A DNA stretch of 36,523 nucleotides from a virus. The stretch is from positions 1 through 36,523 of IMG/VR virus record IMGVR_UViG_3300049043_000073. One strand, 5' to 3'. The notes below the pieces were generated by a model. That model was given only the letters and a program-made list of their open reading frames with translations. It had not been told where the DNA came from and made no database searches. Below, piece after piece: positions 18,105 to 36,523 of the stretch (positions within the stretch are counted from its first letter, which is position 1; each line of letters begins with the position of its first letter). A program made the position numbers and the translations under genes.

Positions 18105-18136
18105 CAAAAGTATTAATTTAAACTAACATTTACAAA
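18105..18136 (-). promoter_or_regulatory. Bacteroidota-type promoter for lipoprotein operon
   Basis: On the minus strand, TTTG (18133-18136), 20 bases, then TACTTTTG (18105-18112) match the Bacteroidota consensus TTTG-N19 to 21-TAnnTTTG. The start codon lies only four bases beyond the -7 element, so the transcript would be leaderless or start inside the gene. The promoter overlaps the 3' end of the dnaB-like gene. Confidence 0.55.
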
Positions 18137-19425
18137 TTTCCAATCTTCATTATTTTACCATCAAACTTTAAAGCCACTTCGCCCGTTTGAAGCCCACGAC
18201 CTTTAGCGATATCGAATAACATCAATCCCCTCGTATCTATTGGTTTACCTTTATATTCGTATCCGTTAGGGAATAATTCGTAATACTCAGGTCGGAATAT
18301 AAAACTAACAATATCCGCATCCTGTTCAATACTACCCGATTCCCGAAGGTCACTTAATAACGGTCGTTTATCTGGTCGTTCCTCACATTTTCTACTCAAC
18401 TGACTTAAAGCAATAACAGGAATATTTAAATCCTTTGCGATTGTTTTTAATCCTCTTGATATTGAGCTAATCTCCTGCTCTCGACTACCTTCGCCCTCAC
18501 CTCGCATTAATTGTAGATAATCTACTATGATTAATTTAATATTCCTTTCATACTTTAACTTTTTAGCCTTAGCTTTTAAATCCGAAATACTTAATACTGA
18601 GGAATCATCTATGTAGAATGGAGCATCGGATAATTTGTTAAATGATGTATTCATTACTTCAATATCATTAAGTCCGATTCTCTTTTGATTAATTAGAGTA
18701 CTTGGGATGTAAGATTCCGATGAAGCCAAGCGACCAGCTAATTCTGAAGCGGTCATCTCTAAACTAAAGAATGCCACAGGGATATTATTTAAAGCCGGTA
18801 TTTTAGCTAAATGTAAAGCGACTGCGGTTTTACCCATAGCAGGACGTGCTGCTATTATAATTAAATTACCATTCTGCCACCCTCCAGTTATTGAATCTAA
18901 ATCATTAAGTCCTGAAAGTATGCCGGTGGGTTGACCTGAGCTTATAACTTCGTAAATGTCTTTAACTAAATCCCCGTAAATAGTTTTTAGTGTTTTAACT
19001 TTGTCTAACTTAAAGGTAGTAATATCGGATATCTTATTGTTAATATCTTCAATTATTTCTAATGGGTCATTAACCGTGTCCGCTGTTTTCTTTTGAATCT
19101 GAAGTCCTAAAAACGAAAGTTCACGTATTAAATAAACTTCAACTAACCTATTAATTAAAAAGTTTAAATTCCCTATTTCATTTGTTAAACTTGTTATATA
19201 ATACGGGCCTCCAATTTGGTCTAATTGCCCTCTTTTTTTAAGTTCTAAACAAACGGTAACGGTATCTATGTTAAAACCACCCTTTAAAAGTTCACACATT
19301 GCGTTATAAACGCACTTCGTCTCAAAGTGGTAGAAATACTCCACTTTTAATTTATCTGCGCTTAAAACGAATTCTTGAGGGAATAACAAAATAGTACCTA
19401 ATAGATTCTCTTCTAACTTTTTCAT
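18130..19425 (-). CDS. dnaB: Replicative DNA helicase, DnaB family
   Basis: 431 residues, close to the bacterial family length. The N-terminal part is helical ('ENLLGTILLFPQEF', 'IGGPYYITSLTNEI'). The RecA-like motor shows Walker A 'ARPAMGKT' (193-200), 'FFSLEMTASELAGRLAS', Walker B 'LIIVDYLQLM' (Asp302), 'IPVIALSQLSRKCEERPDKRP' and the conserved 'SDLRESGSIEQDADIV'. It would form the hexameric fork helicase for phage DNA replication. It overlaps the upstream initiator-like gene by four bases. Confidence 0.95.
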   Translation of the reverse strand: MKKLEENLLGTILLFPQEFVLSADKLKVEYFYHFETKCVYNAMCELLKGGFNIDTVTVCLELKKRGQLDQIGGPYYITSLTNEIGNLNFLINRLVEVYLIRELSFLGLQIQKKTADTVNDPLEIIEDINNKISDITTFKLDKVKTLKTIYGDLVKDIYEVISSGQPTGILSGLNDLDSITGGWQNGNLIIIAARPAMGKTAVALHLAKIPALNNIPVAFFSLEMTASELAGRLASSESYIPSTLINQKRIGLNDIEVMNTSFNKLSDAPFYIDDSSVLSISDLKAKAKKLKYERNIKLIIVDYLQLMRGEGEGSREQEISSISRGLKTIAKDLNIPVIALSQLSRKCEERPDKRPLLSDLRESGSIEQDADIVSFIFRPEYYELFPNGYEYKGKPIDTRGLMLFDIAKGRGLQTGEVALKFDGKIMKIGNL

Positions 19426-20135
19426 AAATATTGATTACGTTGTGCTTTTTGAGGTCCCGAACTTACGGTTAATTTTTTAATGTATGGCAAAGTATTTAAC
19501 AAAGTAGATTTCCAATAAACTATCTTCTGATACTTACCTGAGCGGTTAATACTCCAGTCGGATTCTAACCAGCTATCGTATTTTAACTTTAAGTCCGATG
19601 AATCAACATTAGGCTCTTTTGTTTTAGCGTATTCTAAAAATTCATCAAAGTTTGGAATTATGCTTTTATTATTACTATTATTATTTATATTATTATTACT
19701 ATTATTATTAGGTAAAGTTTTTTTACCATCGTGGTAAAGTTTTTTTACCGAGCTTGGTATATTTTCTTTACCATCTTGACTAAGGTTATTTACCAATGGT
19801 AAACTTTCTTTACCAGATATAAATTGTTCATTTTCTGTACTTGCCACTATCCAGTTAGATTTATTTTGAATAGCATTACAATAAAATTCTGAGGCTCTTA
19901 AGTATTTAGTTGTAGGTTCTTTTATAACAAATCCTTTAATAATTAAAGAATCAATTATATTTAAAATTGATTGTTTACTTAAATCAAGATCATCAGCGAT
20001 TCTTTGTTTTGTTATAATTGCCCATCCTCCAAACTTTGTATTGTTAGACAAGTGGTAGATACAGTCAAGGACTGCGTACTCATGCATAGAAAGGTTCATT
20101 GCCTTTCTTAAGGGATGTAAAATGGTTGTATACAT
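19422..20135 (-). CDS. DnaD-like replication initiator / helicase loader
   Basis: 237 residues from the ATG at 20135 ('MYTTILHPLRKAMNLSMHEY'). The open frame extends upstream, but that part would be read through a hairpin leader, so I reject it. Residues about 20-75 are a winged-helix domain ('AIITKQRIADDLDLSKQSILNIIDSLIIKGF'). A low-complexity Asn/Ser linker and a C-terminal domain ('NFDEFLEYAKTKEPN...LKLKYDSWLESDW..N..GKYQKIVYWKSTL') follow. A wHTH plus a compact C-terminal domain directly before dnaB is the usual form of phage initiators that load the helicase. Confidence 0.72.
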   Translation of the reverse strand: MYTTILHPLRKAMNLSMHEYAVLDCIYHLSNNTKFGGWAIITKQRIADDLDLSKQSILNIIDSLIIKGFVIKEPTTKYLRASEFYCNAIQNKSNWIVASTENEQFISGKESLPLVNNLSQDGKENIPSSVKKLYHDGKKTLPNNNSNNNINNNSNNKSIIPNFDEFLEYAKTKEPNVDSSDLKLKYDSWLESDWSINRSGKYQKIVYWKSTLLNTLPYIKKLTVSSGPQKAQRNQYL

Positions 20136-20140
20136 ATTAA

Positions 20141-20189
20141 AAAGAAAAAACCCACGAGGTTCGGCGAGCGATGCCTCCCCCAGTGGGTT
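20141..20189 (-). terminator. Terminator-like hairpin in leader of replication operon
   Basis: On the minus strand AACCCAC (20183-20189 complement) pairs with GTGGGTT (20149-20155). An inner GAGG/CCTC pair follows, and TTTTTTCTTTTT comes directly after. The stem lies between a good promoter (20236-20266) and the start codon at 20135. It can act as an attenuator or as the end of the upstream transcript. Confidence 0.7.
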
Positions 20190-20235
20190 AATTAAACAAA
20201 CATGAAAAACAATGTATGTCGCTCTCATACGGGTA

Positions 20236-20266
20236 CAAATATAACTATTTTTTAGTTAAAAACAAA
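20236..20266 (-). promoter_or_regulatory. Bacteroidota-type promoter of replication operon
   Basis: On the minus strand TTTG (20263-20266), exactly 19 bases, then TATATTTG (20236-20243) fit TTTG-N19-TAnnTTTG. Transcription should start near 20229, leaving a leader of about 95 bases with a terminator-like hairpin before the DnaD-like gene. Confidence 0.75.
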
Positions 20267-27022: not shown

Positions 27023-27474
27023 TGGCAAAACATAAATACATTAAAACACCCGAAGAGCTTTACGATATGTGGACGGATTATAAAACCCACGTAAAAGCAA
27101 ATCCAAGGTATAAATATGTTCTTTCAGTAAAGACAGGATTAATGGTTCCTGAGCCTTTAGAATGCCCATTAACACAAAACGGGTTTGAAGCATTTTGTTA
27201 TACTAAATATAATGTATGTGTTAGTAATTATTTTGATAATCAGAACGGTGTTTACGATGAATATAATGCCATCTGTACACGTATAGTAAACGAACGTAAA
27301 GATGATCAAATAACTGGTGGTATGGTTGGTCAGTATAATGCAAGTATAACACAACGTCTTAACGGACTAACTGAAAAAACCGAAACCACTACCAACACTT
27401 CAATAAGTATTTTAAACATAGACCCTTTGGATGATTCAAGAGACAACCTCATTACGCAAGATAGCAGCTCTTAA
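27022..27474 (+). CDS. terS: Terminase small subunit, gp3-like
   Basis: 150 residues. The pattern 'LTQNGFEAFCYTKYN', 'YDEYNAICTRIVNERKDDQITGGMVGQYNASITQRLNGLTEK' fits the P22 gp3-type DNA-packaging family, which recognises the packaging site and feeds DNA to the motor. The C-terminal tail 'ISILNIDPLDD' is a usual end of this family. It overlaps the large subunit by 44 bases. Confidence 0.85.
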   Translation: MAKHKYIKTPEELYDMWTDYKTHVKANPRYKYVLSVKTGLMVPEPLECPLTQNGFEAFCYTKYNVCVSNYFDNQNGVYDEYNAICTRIVNERKDDQITGGMVGQYNASITQRLNGLTEKTETTTNTSISILNIDPLDDSRDNLITQDSSS

Positions 27475-28610
27475 AAAGCGTATTAAAGTCATAAGGGGTG
27501 GTCAGGGTGCTGGTAAAACAATAAGCATACTTATTCTATTAATTAACCACGCTTCAAGTAAGGCAGGGCGTGAGATTCTTATTTTATCATCGGAGTTAAC
27601 TAAAATGCGTTTAACAGTTATTAAGGACTTTGTTAAACTAATGAGGCAGATAGGTATTTACAATGAGTCAAGATTCATAGCCGGAACGCTTTATAGATTC
27701 CCTAATGGCTCTTTTATTAAATTTATAGGTTTAGATAAGTCCGATGTCGGAAAGGGCCTTAGAAGTGATGTAGCTTATTTTAATGAGGTTAACAAAATAG
27801 ATTTTGAAAGTTATAGACAAGTCGCTTCACGGGCCGGTCAGGTTTATGCGGATTACAACCCCGACGCTGAGTTCTACATCGACACGGATGTAATTAATAG
27901 GGGAAGACTGCGATTTCTTACAGTTAACATTTCAGGATAACGAGCTTTTATCGGATAGTGAAAAGGAAGAGATACTACTTTACAAAACTAACGGTTATAA
28001 TGAAGACGGAAGTGTTAAAAACAGTTATTGGGCTAACCTTTGGAATGTTTATGGACTTGGTAATATCGGAAATCTTCACGGGATTATATTCGAAAACTGG
28101 CAAATAGTTAAACAAATACCTGAAAGTGCTGAGTTATTAGGGTATGGATTAGACTTCGGGTTCACGAATGATCCGACTGCTTTAATTTCGGTTTATAGAT
28201 TCAACTCCGAGCTTTATGTTAAAGAGTTAATCTACAAGACAAGGTTAACAAATAACGACATAGTTAATTTAATGACTCAGTTAGGGGTTGACAAGTATAA
28301 AGACATAATAGCGGACTCAGCCGAACCAAAAAGCATAGAGGATATTTACAGAGGTGGTTTCAGGAATATCTACGGAGCTAAAAAAGGACCGGATTCAATA
28401 AGAAACTCAATCGACAAACTTCAAAGATATAAGATTAACATAACCGAAAGTTCTACTAACTTAATAAAAGAGTTTAGAGGATTTACATGGGCAAAGGACA
28501 AGACCGGAGCACAAACAGGAGAACCCATCGGAATAAACGACCACGGAATAGCAGCATTAAGATATTTCGCTTTAAATAAGCTTGACCAAACCCGAGTAAC
28601 CTTCATGTGA
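27431..28610 (+). CDS. terL: Terminase large subunit, one-base frameshift
   Basis: Removing one G from the GGGG at 27900-27903 gives about 392 residues. ATPase part: Walker A 'GGQGAGKT' (23-30), 'LILSSEL', Walker B 'VAYFNE' (114-119) and 'YADYNP'. Nuclease part after the joint ('DCDFLQLTFQDN'): 'GYGLDFGFTNDPTAL', 'IIADSAEPKSIEDI' and 'INDHGIAALRY', holding the acidic residues expected of the RNase H-like fold. It pumps DNA into the prohead and cuts it. The break in a G run is most likely a sequencing error. Confidence 0.92.
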
Positions 28611-31150: not shown

Positions 31151-32290
31151 ACTATTTATAGCCGGAACTGAAGTACCTGTAATGCAGGACTTGGGAATTA
31201 AGATAACCTATGCGGTAGCGGACATGCGTACACCAGAGTTTAGGGATTTTGATTTCAGTAAGACAATATCTTTACCTTCAGTTAAAACAGTAGATAGGCT
31301 ATTTGAGTTTATTTTTGATGTTAACTTAGATTTACAAACCTTTAACCCTAATAAAAAAACAGATGCTGAAGTTTATTTAAACGAGCATAGAATATTCAAA
31401 GGCTCTATTCAGATAGTTAGAATAGAGATGAATCTTCAAACTGGTCAGTATGTTTATTCATGTAACTTAATAGGCGAAGGTGGGGATTTATTTAAACAAA
31501 TAGGCGATAAACTATTAATTAATAACGATGACTCAGCGGATGACATCGACTTAAACTCTAATCCTTATTCTTATAACTTTAACCACGCATTAGATAGGTC
31601 AACTATTCAACGCTCTTGGGGTGATTGGAATGGAACAGGATACAACGGAAGCAACACACCAAAGAATTGGAACGGTTCAGCATTTGTTAATACAGTAGCT
31701 GGTTATGGTTATAGATATCCTTTAATTTATTACGGACAGTATCAGTTTAACAATTTATCTCAAATGTTTGGGCATACCTGGGAAACGAGATACATGCGTC
31801 CGGCTATACCTATTTATCAAATCATAAAACAAATATTCACAAAAGCCGGTAAGACATTTACAAGTACATTTTTAGAATCAAGCAACTTTAAAAAGTTAGT
31901 AATACCATTCTCAAACGAAAGTTTAGAACCGGACCCAACAGAATACAATAATAGGACATTCTCAGTAGGGTATCATACACTTTACACGCAATCTTTTACT
32001 GCTCCGACTTTAACATTTATAACATCAGTTAGTGGTACTTATTTTTATACAACAGGGTTAAATACAGTAGCTTTAACAAATCCAAGAGAAACACCAACAA
32101 CTGCTCCTGCTTATAATTATTACGATAACGGAAACCAACATAACGCTACGACTGGTATTGTAACAGTAGGTCAAAGCGGTAACTATGTTTTAAGCCTTTT
32201 CGCTGGCACTCCTGTATTTAATCACAATATAAGTAACACAATAACAACAGCTACGATTGTAGGTGGTGCATATATTCAAAGGTCAACGGA
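31143..32290 (+). CDS. Large tail protein, N-terminal part (cut off at chimera junction)
   Basis: About 380 codons of phage sequence. 'MTKLFIAGTEVPVMQDLGIKI' and 'DFDFSKTISLPSVKTVDRLF' are typical of N-termini of tail-tip or baseplate proteins in Bacteroidota phages. A beta-rich part ends in '..GQSGNYVLSLFAGTPV' and '[11 protein letters not shown]'. After about 32290 the frame runs into foreign GC-rich sequence, so the residues after 'STDG' are not real. The missing remainder is probably the fragment at 473-2110. Confidence 0.65.
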
Positions 32291-33085
32291 TGGGGGTTTG
32301 ATCCATGGTCGGGATCCCGGAACCGAAAAATTACATTCTTGGCTGGGATGTTGCAGGAGACGTGGATGAGGTCGGCAAGAATGTGAAGCGCTTTACGCCA
32401 AGACGCCGTGTTCGGCTCCTGCCAGGGTGCTCTTGCTGAATATGCGTGCGCAGCCGAAGAACAGTTCGCAATAAAACCCACCAACCTCACCTTCGAGCAG
32501 GCTGAGCCGTTCCCACCGCAGCACTGACTGCCCTCCAAGGTCTTCGAGACGCAGGAAAAGTACAAGCAGGGCAGAGTGTCTGATCAACGAAGCCTCAGGC
32601 GGTGTCGGGACCTTCGCTGTGCAAATCGCAAAGTTTCTTGGGGCAGAGGTCACCGGCGTGTGCAGCACGAAAAATCTCGAATCTGGTCCGGTCGCTCGGC
32701 GCAGACCACGTCATCGATTACACCCAAGAAGACTTCGCACAAGGCGGGCCTGCGCTACGACCTGATCCTCGACAATGTCGGCAACCGTTCGTTCTCCGAT
32801 TGCCGACGCGCGCTAGCCCCTCGGGGAACGCTGCTGCCCGACACTGGCCACGCAGGGATGGGATACGTGCTCATGGCTTTTGCCGCGACTTCGGCCTTCG
32901 TGCGCCAACAGGGCCGTATGTTCGTCGAAAAGCCAAACACCCAAGACCTGCTCGTTCTCAAAAATCTCATCGAGGCCGGGAAAGTGATACCGGTCATCGA
33001 CAAAATATACCGGCTGGACGAGAGCCCCAAGGCGCTCGCCTATGTCGGCGAGGGGCACGCCCGTGGCAAAGTCGTCGTCTTGTGA
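32291..33085 (+). CDS. MDR alcohol dehydrogenase / quinone oxidoreductase, broken fragment
   Basis: Reading across several frames gives one protein: '[21 protein letters not shown]', '[19 protein letters not shown]', '[21 protein letters not shown]' (NAD(P)-binding loop), '[15 protein letters not shown]', '[13 protein letters not shown]' and '[15 protein letters not shown]'. This is the zinc-independent MDR family. The N-terminus is missing at the chimera junction. At least three or four indels in 800 bases indicate raw read quality rather than a decayed gene. High GC and codon use differ sharply from the phage. Confidence 0.8.
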
Positions 33086-33220
33086 GGTAGGCGAGGTGGG
33101 CACAGTCTTGTGAGGTGGGCACAACAACACGTCCTCGACCCTGAAGGAGCAGCAGACCGGGGCGCTATCTGAAAATGGCTGTTTTTGTGCGGTCAGCGGC
33201 CGAGAGCACGATCCAAACCC

Positions 33221-33640
33221 TCAAACGTTTTTCTGTTGCTCTATGTACTGCTTGATCGCCGACAGAGGCGATCCCCCCACCGTAGAAACAAAATAGGAGT
33301 TCGTCCAAAGGGTCGGCAACCGACTTTTCAGCTTGGGATACTCTTTGCGCAAAATCCGTGAACTGCGCCCTTTGAGCAGCTTCACCAGCCAATGTATGCC
33401 AAACTGCGGATCGACTTCACAAATGAGATGCACATGGTCAGGCATGATCTCCAGCTCAAGGATCTCAACCTGCAGCTCGACCACCGACTCACGCAAGATT
33501 TGTTGCAGCCTTTCCTCAACCCGTCCATTAAAACTTTTCGACGGTATTTGGGACACCACCACCAGTGGTCTTGCGCAGTCGGTGGCATTGCTGTTTTGTT
33601 TGTATTCTGCAATTTTCTCATAAAGAGATTATACAGCCGG
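33221..33640 (-). CDS. tnpA: IS200/IS605-type TnpA transposase, frameshifted
   Basis: Two minus-strand frames combine: 'WWWCPKYRRKVL', then 'GRVEERLQQILRE', 'ELEIMPDHVHLICEV' (HUH motif DHVHL), 'LVKLLKGRSSRILRKEYP', 'LWTNSYFVSTVGG' and 'AIKQYIEQQKNV' with the catalytic Tyr. This is the small Y1 single-strand transposase of about 140 residues. One indel near 33540 splits it. The end hairpins of the element could not be defined with confidence. Confidence 0.8.
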
Positions 33641-33852
33641 AAACAACGTAATCCAAAATGCAAGAAACTATCAGTAATCTCCGCTCGTTGCCCCCCTTCC
33701 CCTCAAAAAAAACAGCGTACAGCCACGCAGACTGCAACATCGTAACATCTGTTGCCGAAAAATATATTTACAGAACTGTATAGTAAATAAATAATCGACC
33801 GTGCAGAATCTGCACGACCCCCACAACCCAGGAGCACGCAAGGAGCGCGCCC

Positions 33853-34055
33853 ATGCCCCACCCCAACCGAAGTTGCCCGCTATATCCATTTCCGCGGCGC
33901 ACCCGACCAGAAGGCAAGATCCTGATGGTGGCCAGCGGCCCGGCCGCGTCTACCGCAGAGACGGGCTGGCCCATCGGCTTTTGGGCCGCCCGGCTTGTCG
34001 TTCCACCCGCTGCACGTCTTTCAAGAGGCGGGCCACCCGTTGCATCGAATCCCGT
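33853..34055 (+). CDS. DJ-1/PfpI-family protein, short fragment
   Basis: 'KILMVASGPA' and 'AETGWPIGFWAA', followed after a frame change by 'SFHPLHVFQEAGHP', are the usual N-terminal blocks of DJ-1/PfpI-type glutamine amidotransferase-like proteins. Only the first 65 or so residues can be followed before indels scramble the frame, and the nucleophilic Cys region is not seen. Part of the GC-rich bacterial fragment. Confidence 0.5.
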
Positions 34056-34089
34056 AGGTGCGGTCGCCAGGGAGCTGCCACCTTACAGC

Positions 34090-35455
<1,366 letters not shown>

Positions 35456-35673
35456 TTGTTTCCGGCCTCCTTGGCCCTGGATCTCACACCTTGCAAAGCA
35501 TGCGTTCCCCACTCCATGTGCAATCGTGAGCAGCCCCTGCTGGAAGACGCTGCCCTCCGTTCCACCCGCTTCTCCCCAAATGACAGATCTGTAGTATAAT
35601 CCAAACCAACACCCAGTCTTTTTGGCCTCACGGCCGAGGAGACCTGTTCCAAGAGCAGACGCCAACGTTTTTC

Positions 35674-36046
35674 ATGACCATGCGTGCCGACTATATCTGG
35701 ATGAACGGCAAGAATCATTCCCCTGGGACGAGGCCAAAGTCACACGTCTTCACCCATGCACTGCGCTACGGCAGCAGCGCCTTTGAAGGGATCCGCGTCT
35801 ACGAGACCACGCACGGGCCGGCCCTCTTCCGAGGCCGGGGAACATCTACGAACGGCTGCTCTACAGCGCCAAGGTGGCACGCATTCCCCTCCCCTTACAC
35901 CGTCGAAGAGTATCTGCAGGCCACTTTCGACGTGGTCCGCGCCAACCAACAGCGCAACGCCTACGTGCGCCCACTCCTTCCGCGGCTACGATAAGCTCGG
36001 CGTCGACGGACGCTCCTGCCCGGTCGAAAAGCGATCGTGCGCCTAG
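35674..36046 (+). CDS. ilvE: Branched-chain aminotransferase N-terminus, truncated and frameshifted
   Basis: 'MRADYIWMNGK', 'HVFTHALRYGSSAFEGIRVYET', 'GPALFRG', 'YTVEEYLQATFDVVRANQQRNAYVRPL' and 'FRGYDKLGVDG' match the start of IlvE, the PLP enzyme for the last step of Val, Leu and Ile synthesis. Several indels break the frame. The gene stops where adapter sequence begins (36070), so truncation is technical: the molecule ended there. Confidence 0.85.
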
Positions 36047-36069
36047 GTGCCCTGGTTTTTTGCAGGCCT

Positions 36070-36092
36070 TACTTGGTTCAGTTAGTATTGCT
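36070..36092 (+). other. Internal Nanopore adapter
   Basis: TACTTGGTTCAGTTAGTATTGCT matches the adapter TACTTCGTTCAGTTACGTATTGCT with one substitution and one missing base, and is preceded by a T-rich stretch. It separates the GC-rich bacterial fragment from an AT-rich one. Confidence 0.9.
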
Positions 36093-36108
36093 GGCTTTTT
36101 TGGCTTGG

Positions 36109-36480
36109 TCAAGATTTGCGTAAGCAAACATAGTTGTTGATATGACTAAGCGTGATACGATTGTTATGAGAGATATCATGTAATCCTCCTGCTATCAAAT
36201 TATATTTGGCATGGGATGGAACTATACCTTTATTCAGAAGCACCTTCTGTATCGAAGGATCTTTTTCCATGAATGTGGCAAATCCCCATACCAAGTCTTT
36301 TTTTTCGCTTTTTACATATGCAAATATAGGAAGTATCAAAGGATACATGTTTTGAACGATAAAACCCGGATGAACAATCTGTGGAGCTATCCTTCTACCT
36401 GTGCTATCAGTATAACCTATTCTAATCGCTTTGAGGGTACAAATCCTTAACAATATCTGACATCAAACCGACACCAATTG
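36109..36480 (-). CDS. PstS-like phosphate-binding protein, C-terminal fragment
   Basis: Minus-strand reading 'IGYTDSTGRRIAPQIV', then 'YPLILPIFAYVKSEKKDL' and 'FMEKDPSIQKVLLNKGIVPSH', is the typical C-terminal part of PstS-like phosphate-binding proteins ('YPL.RPL..YV', then a short helix before the end). One frame change near 36445 joins it to 'SKSIGVGLMSDIVKD' upstream. Source organism unknown. The window ends shortly after, beside a weak match to the reverse adapter (36493-36503). Confidence 0.5.
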
Positions 36481-36523
36481 ACTTTGACTTCAACAATACG
36501 TAAGATGTTTGGCGAGCCTTCCG

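Follow-up and report, generated by a model that had tools for sequence, protein, structure and literature searches.

Plasmids and the satellite P4 are the classic cases of RNA-based replication control that tells self from non-self. In ColE1, kissing between RNAI and RNAII through 7-nt loops in small hairpins sets the specificity of replication control, and the sense and antisense RNAs come from opposite strands. For Bacteroidota phages, no description of RNA-based self/non-self replication control was found in the open-access literature searched. The rep genes of pT181 and pIP501 are subject to countertranscript-driven attenuation, with a terminator between the promoter and the initiator start codon (PMC5703833). 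In the repZ leaders of IncI-alpha, IncB and IncL/M plasmids, as described in PMC10724649, a hairpin loop close to the 5' end of the initiator mRNA pairs with a downstream leader segment and loop changes alter incompatibility; the partner segment lies near the ribosome site and an antisense RNA (RNAI/Inc) competes. According to PMC4825925, pairing of leader segments leads to premature termination in P4 CI RNA immunity (seqA - CI/seqB - seqC), and at Gifsy-1 IsrK transcripts from one promoter either terminate early as a short RNA or read through into an mRNA, on which the short RNA acts in trans, controlling an antirepressor operon by opening a ribosome site.

The locus compared with these systems is the leader of a replication operon in a virus record of 36,523 nucleotides (IMG/VR record IMGVR_UViG_3300049043_000073, here called the window). 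Its features, in the direction of transcription, are as follows.

20236-20266, minus strand: Bacteroidota sigma-A type promoter TTTG-N19-TATATTTG (motif match, conserved in 11 relatives)
~20231, minus strand: predicted transcription start (+1), from box placement in F. psychrophilum (PMC9723704)
20133-20228, minus strand: reading frame opening at an ATG at ~+4 (within the stem of H1) and running through H2; in the window it continues in frame into the initiator
20214-20230, minus strand: hairpin H1, GTATG-[AGAGCGA]-CATAC, 5-bp stem and 7-nt loop (stem invariant in all relatives)
20219-20224, minus strand: H1 kissing segment GAGCGA, allele A (two-sided covariation with 20166-20171)
20190-20213, minus strand: linker between H1 and H2 (invariant across all relatives)
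20149-20189, minus strand: terminator-like hairpin H2, 7+4+3 bp with a 7-nt apical loop (fold, conservation)
20166-20171, minus strand: H2 kissing segment TCGCTC (reverse complement of GAGCGA in H1, without mismatch)
20139-20150, minus strand: U-rich tract TTTTTTCTTTTT, directly after H2; weak or interrupted in several relatives
19422-20135, minus strand: replication initiator/DnaD-like helicase loader, first gene of the operon (PHROG 270/186 matches)
18130-19425, minus strand: DnaB-like replicative helicase, second gene (PF03796, E=2e-88)

The window leader fits best among RNA-controlled replication leaders, as a variant that is neither P4-type nor pT181-type nor in Rfam (0 matches in the window for Rfam 15 at gathering score). 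As in P4, an untranslated leader stands ahead of replication genes; unlike P4, the window family has one complementary loop pair without a third downstream copy. It is not P4-type because this third site was tested for and is absent: no segment complementary to both upstream and downstream leader sites was found in the window family. A trans-acting processed CI RNA and lysogeny are features of P4; lysogenic immunity as such is unlikely for the window phage because no integrase was detected in it, though the record may be incomplete. As pT181 and pIP501 have a terminator, so the window leader has a terminator-like hairpin between promoter and initiator start, but no countertranscript was detected and there is no mutually exclusive antiterminator. 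The leader is not pT181-type because it has no such antiterminator and no antisense promoter, a scan limited to the consensus type having found no plus-strand TTG-N17..23-TAnnTTTG site near it. In contrast to ColE1, both loops lie on one strand.

With IncI-alpha repZ the window leader shares a 5' hairpin loop of the initiator mRNA, here that of H1, that pairs near the start codon; here, however, it pairs with the loop of a terminator-like hairpin, and the search for an antisense promoter found none. The window leader has only part of the IncI-alpha pseudoknot logic. Nor was a coupled leader peptide of the IncI-alpha type found: such coupling is not conserved, because the frame from the +4 ATG has 30 aa and ends beside the initiator ATG in L002, L004 and L014, has 47 aa in other relatives, and in the window is fused to the initiator through a one-base deletion in a G run. 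This frame is probably not a conserved gene. ATG 20228 was also considered as the true, near-leaderless start of the initiator and was ruled out, the frame not being conserved among relatives. The antirepressor target of IsrK recurs, as a putative one, in the Riemerella phage leaders described below; unlike in the window leader, hypervariable kissing loops are not mentioned in the description of IsrK consulted (PMC4825925).

The leader module and its relatives

Patterns for the H1 region, H2 and the linker each recovered the same 11 IMG/VR contigs, with one copy per contig. The promoter reported in the earlier note lies where it was placed and is retained in all 11; it agrees with the Bacteroidota sigma-A pattern of a -33 TTTG/TTG box, a spacer of ~19-21 nt and a -7 TAnnTTTG box. 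The motif alone is weak evidence, because the phage part of the window contains one strict match against 0.33 expected (shuffles, both strands). The flavobacterial TAnnTTTG box spans -12 to -5, as measured in F. psychrophilum (PMC9723704), and the distance from the +1 so predicted to the initiator ATG at 20135 bears out the leader length of ~95 nt given previously. In L004, an inserted DNA methyltransferase gene (L004:208-848) occupies precisely the interval from the small upstream gene to the -33 box, and sequence homology to the window restarts at the -33 TTTG, past the insertion; promoter and leader thus form a modular unit. H1 starts at ~+2 and the 5' boundary of the conserved module is the -33 box, which points to an element that acts as RNA.

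H2 reads AACCCAC-T-GGGG-GA-GGC-ATCGCTC-GCC-GAA-CCTC-GTGGGTT (20189-20149, minus strand), with stems AACCCAC/GTGGGTT (7 bp), GGGG/CCTC (4 bp) and GGC/GCC (3 bp). Its fold z-score is -2.05, and terminator-like sites in the region (3 observed versus 4.8 expected) are not above chance, so that the support for the element is conservation and covariation, not the motif. The hairpin, on whose presence in close relatives the earlier note had made its proposal depend, occurs in every close relative found. Blastn of the leader against phage records gave only 27-33 nt matches with E >= 0.01. A pattern scan of genome contigs gave 17 matches, none with promoter and H2 context, and these were taken as chance.

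Kissing loops and their alleles

H1, found at the extreme 5' end of the predicted transcript, has a 7-nt loop, 6 nt of which can pair with the apical loop of H2, likewise 7 nt long. In relatives the H1 loop reads GTGCAG, TCGCAG or TAGCAG and the matching H2 apex CTGCAC, CTGCGA or CTGCTA; there are thus four loop alleles (A-D), and the two loops always switch together. Neither H1 nor this hypervariability with preserved complementarity figured in the earlier note. Across an alignment that comprises seven distinct leaders, pairing in the kissing helix is 100%, with two-sided changes in 4 of 6 pairs and three pair types at one of them, a covariation score reached by 0 of 500 shuffles; pairing falls to 33-51% when the register is slid. 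The H2 closing pair under the loop also covaries (C-G, A-U, U-G). The kissing-loop leader RNA is therefore well supported computationally, with strong covariation support from the compared sequences.

Variation is confined to the loops. The H1 stem, the linker and the lower 11 bp of H2 do not vary among relatives, and the mean pairwise difference per site, at 0.36 for the H1 loop and 0.32 for the H2 apex, drops to 0.003 over the other 75 leader columns, against a background in which dnaB DNA identity to the window is 94-97.4% in most relatives and 86% in L011. A scan of all alignable contigs for allele swaps, in which one allele's 6-mer is replaced by that of another, hit only the H1 and H2 loops and thereby served as a control internal to each genome; in the alignable parts of the window family there is no third allele-specific copy, at the start codon or elsewhere, and the H2 loop has no complement around the start codon. 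Diversifying selection on the loops is only suggested by this pattern, since perhaps ~3 independent allele replacements underlie it and the contigs do not sample it independently. For allele A, the loop pairing energy is -8.6 kcal/mol with the cognate partner, against -2.0 to -3.9 kcal/mol with others, an own-partner preference of ~5 kcal/mol. Cross-pairing among alleles B, C and D still reaches -5.2 to -5.7 kcal/mol, so orthogonality is incomplete.

The earlier note had proposed that leaders of related phages be compared for covarying alternative pairing. Covarying pairing is indeed present, but as a loop-loop kiss; because the kiss is geometrically compatible with H2, H1-H2 pairing is not an either/or antiterminator. 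Folds of truncated transcripts, before the 3' arm of H2 is made, favour the H1-H2 helix, this alternative fold being only transient, and in the finished RNA both hairpins and the kiss can coexist.

Loop alleles reassort with initiator genes, allele A occurring with three initiator types and allele B with two. The initiator gene itself (window 19422-20135, L002-L016) comes with at least five interchangeable types of N-terminal part, is sometimes divided between two ORFs, and has a C-terminal tail that is constant across these types, ahead of a near-identical DnaB. From these sequences, the N-terminal exchange suggests swapping of origin specificity. Four perfect 17-bp palindromes, GGTAWA-N5-TWTACC, lie inside the window's initiator gene (19711-19814, minus strand) at spacings of 22, 23 and 42 bp, where 0.1 are expected in the whole phage part; they are probably iterons of the origin, as in lambda O. 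Where relatives have a different initiator the repeats differ too, being of the CATATG type in L003 and L005.

Leaders of Riemerella phages

Both the window family and a set of Riemerella phages emerged from a generic scan in which a 5'-end segment had to be complementary to the inside of a terminator-like hairpin. A similar leader plan was found in phages CRP6, RAP44, GRAP2, CRP12, PT03, CRP34 and GDF21, where the leaders precede a small ORF and an antirepressor, and the allele set includes two further IMG/VR contigs, L120 and L130. Their locations are as follows.

Riemerella-type leaders: L030:12155-12346; L041 (RAP44); L035-L040; L120; L130; L113

Three segments of these leaders covary with one another: the transcript's initial 14 nt, the complementary stretch immediately preceding CAGCACC in the hairpin, and a copy located directly at the start codon. 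Across eight alleles, 111 of 112 pairs are Watson-Crick and the 5' end and the start-codon copy agree at 88 of 88 positions; the own-allele pairing was matched by 1 of 20000 allele permutations. RAP44 carries two leaders with different alleles (13711, plus strand, and 30567, minus strand), and L130 has two in tandem, again with different alleles. In L113, a diverged member, the start codon itself lies in the third copy. P4 is a closer match to these leaders, in which an upstream segment, its complement and a second downstream copy are all present. No description of three-copy leaders of this type was found in the open-access literature searched, and no convincing copy in a 395-genome sample from the phylum of a Bacteroidales genome. 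The window family shares with them the principle that a hypervariable 5'-end segment pairs with a terminator-like hairpin and keeps its complementarity, but lacks the third copy; homology is not claimed.

Among other DnaB relatives, a generic scan for complementarity between the 5' end and a terminator loop gave nothing convincing. In L026, whose DnaB is 46% identical, the first 9 nt of the leader (L026:5163-5266), GCAGTTCAG, pair with CTGGACTGC with one G-U, and the latter sits within a ATATTCCC/GGGATATTTTTTT hairpin adjoining an ATG. This single example was taken only as a lead, its fold being no better than that of shuffles (z -0.32).

Function of the leader and makeup of the record

The leader may be an RNA attenuator that gives dosage-dependent, allele-specific feedback on replication, as in P4 and plasmids, a reading to which we give a probability of roughly 45%. 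Sequence comparison supports the two hairpins, the kissing covariation, the confinement of hypervariability to the loops and the modularity; we infer control in cis and, above all, specificity in trans, and the position of the transcription start, termination, stability of the RNA, the direction in which the kiss acts and trans action are predictions of the model. Transcription would begin at ~20231, and H1 would fold first, before the linker and H2 are synthesised. Once the apex of H2 emerges from RNA polymerase, its loop could kiss that of H1 (6 bp) while the 3' arm of H2 is yet to be made; H2 would then close beside the U-rich tract and the initiator start codon, so that a fraction of transcripts terminate or stay untranslated and the remainder go on to express initiator and DnaB. 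The resulting short RNA, of ~85 nt, would probably be stable because a hairpin caps each end, and its two hairpins would make it a natural trans-acting species. Because each RNA carries both lock and key, it could pair with the leader of another genome copy or with that of a co-infecting phage of the same allele, and selection to differ from such neighbours would be the reason why only the loops vary.

The kiss could time or stabilise H2, giving transcription attenuation, or gate ribosomes at the AUG. In the window the kissing complex sits 13 nt upstream of the initiator AUG, and the partner of the H1 loop is a segment 31-36 nt upstream of it, within H2. The terminator-like hairpin of 7+4 bp and the T run that the earlier note described just before the start are both real in the window, but the run is not conserved: a good U tract (T6CT5) occurs in the window, L002 and L004, the tract reads TTTCTTCATTTT in L005-L009 and TTTCTTTATTTT in L003, and it is weak in half of the alleles. 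Since it is interrupted in L003, L005 and L008 with the hairpin and kissing pairing kept, the claim that transcripts must end there unless antiterminated was too strong, and the pattern agrees better with partial attenuation or control of translation than with an obligate terminator. The wider proposal of attenuation of the replication genes survives as an RNA leader under selection, with translational control equally allowed.

It is fairly unlikely, in our estimate, that the leader is a translational switch and no terminator at all, the kissing complex upstream of the AUG opening or blocking ribosome access and the U tract being an unstructured initiation region. The relatives with an interrupted tract would suit such a switch, as would the short distance from hairpin to AUG, the variable segment at the start codon in Riemerella-type leaders and the precedent of the IncI-alpha and IncL/M pseudoknot switches (PMC10724649); the good tract of the window, L002 and L004 and the absence, in the window family, of any complement to the H2 loop around the start codon speak against it. 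That the attenuator is purely cis-acting, the kiss only stabilising or timing H2 and the loop diversity reflecting neutral compensatory drift or recombination without trans specificity, is distinctly unlikely. The complementarity is intramolecular in every contig and no trans partner is known, which would agree with such an arrangement, but drift confined to the loops needs a special reason because all other paired positions (the H1 stem and 11 bp of H2) and the linker are invariant. The different alleles within RAP44 and within L130 are, moreover, as expected if cross-talk is harmful.

Hypervariability restricted to exposed loops could also arise if an RNA or nuclease of a satellite, rival phage or host recognised the loops and the phage escaped by changing both, an improbable arms race that requires a partner RNA or protein, none of which has been identified. 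Because it adjoins the initiator gene, the element might act at the DNA level, its hairpins being single-stranded DNA structures such as part of a replication origin, but this is very improbable: the module limits match the promoter and transcript start, and the four palindromic iterons at 19711-19814 are a better origin candidate. Least probable is a self-assembling structural RNA, a small molecule whose two loops, complementary to each other, would drive oligomerisation as in phi29 pRNA (PMC7357161), since the element is the 5' leader of the initiator mRNA and not a separate late RNA gene.

Allele-specific feedback through the leader might extend beyond this family, although we hold the extension to be doubtful: Bacteroidota phages may use hypervariable self-complementary leader RNAs as identity tags that gate replication and antirepressor operons, with alleles as immunity or incompatibility groups. 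Lock and key would then lie on the same transcript, and the groups would separate co-infecting phages, lytic ones included. Such leaders would also be a source of orthogonal RNA regulators for Bacteroidota, the phages concerned being abundant. The four loop alleles, in which lock and key are swapped together on a near-unchanged leader, make allele-specific RNA regulation directly testable.

The window sequence is probably chimeric at both ends: GC climbs to 50-65% past ~32.25 kb (window 32250-36523), where the ORFs are unlike phage and a REP/IS200-like transposase frame lies at 33221-33562, and positions 1-400 also look foreign. The terminase large subunit (window 27431-28610) is apparently split into two ORFs of 169 and 112 aa with a gap between them, which appears to reflect a frameshift, an insertion or an assembly error.
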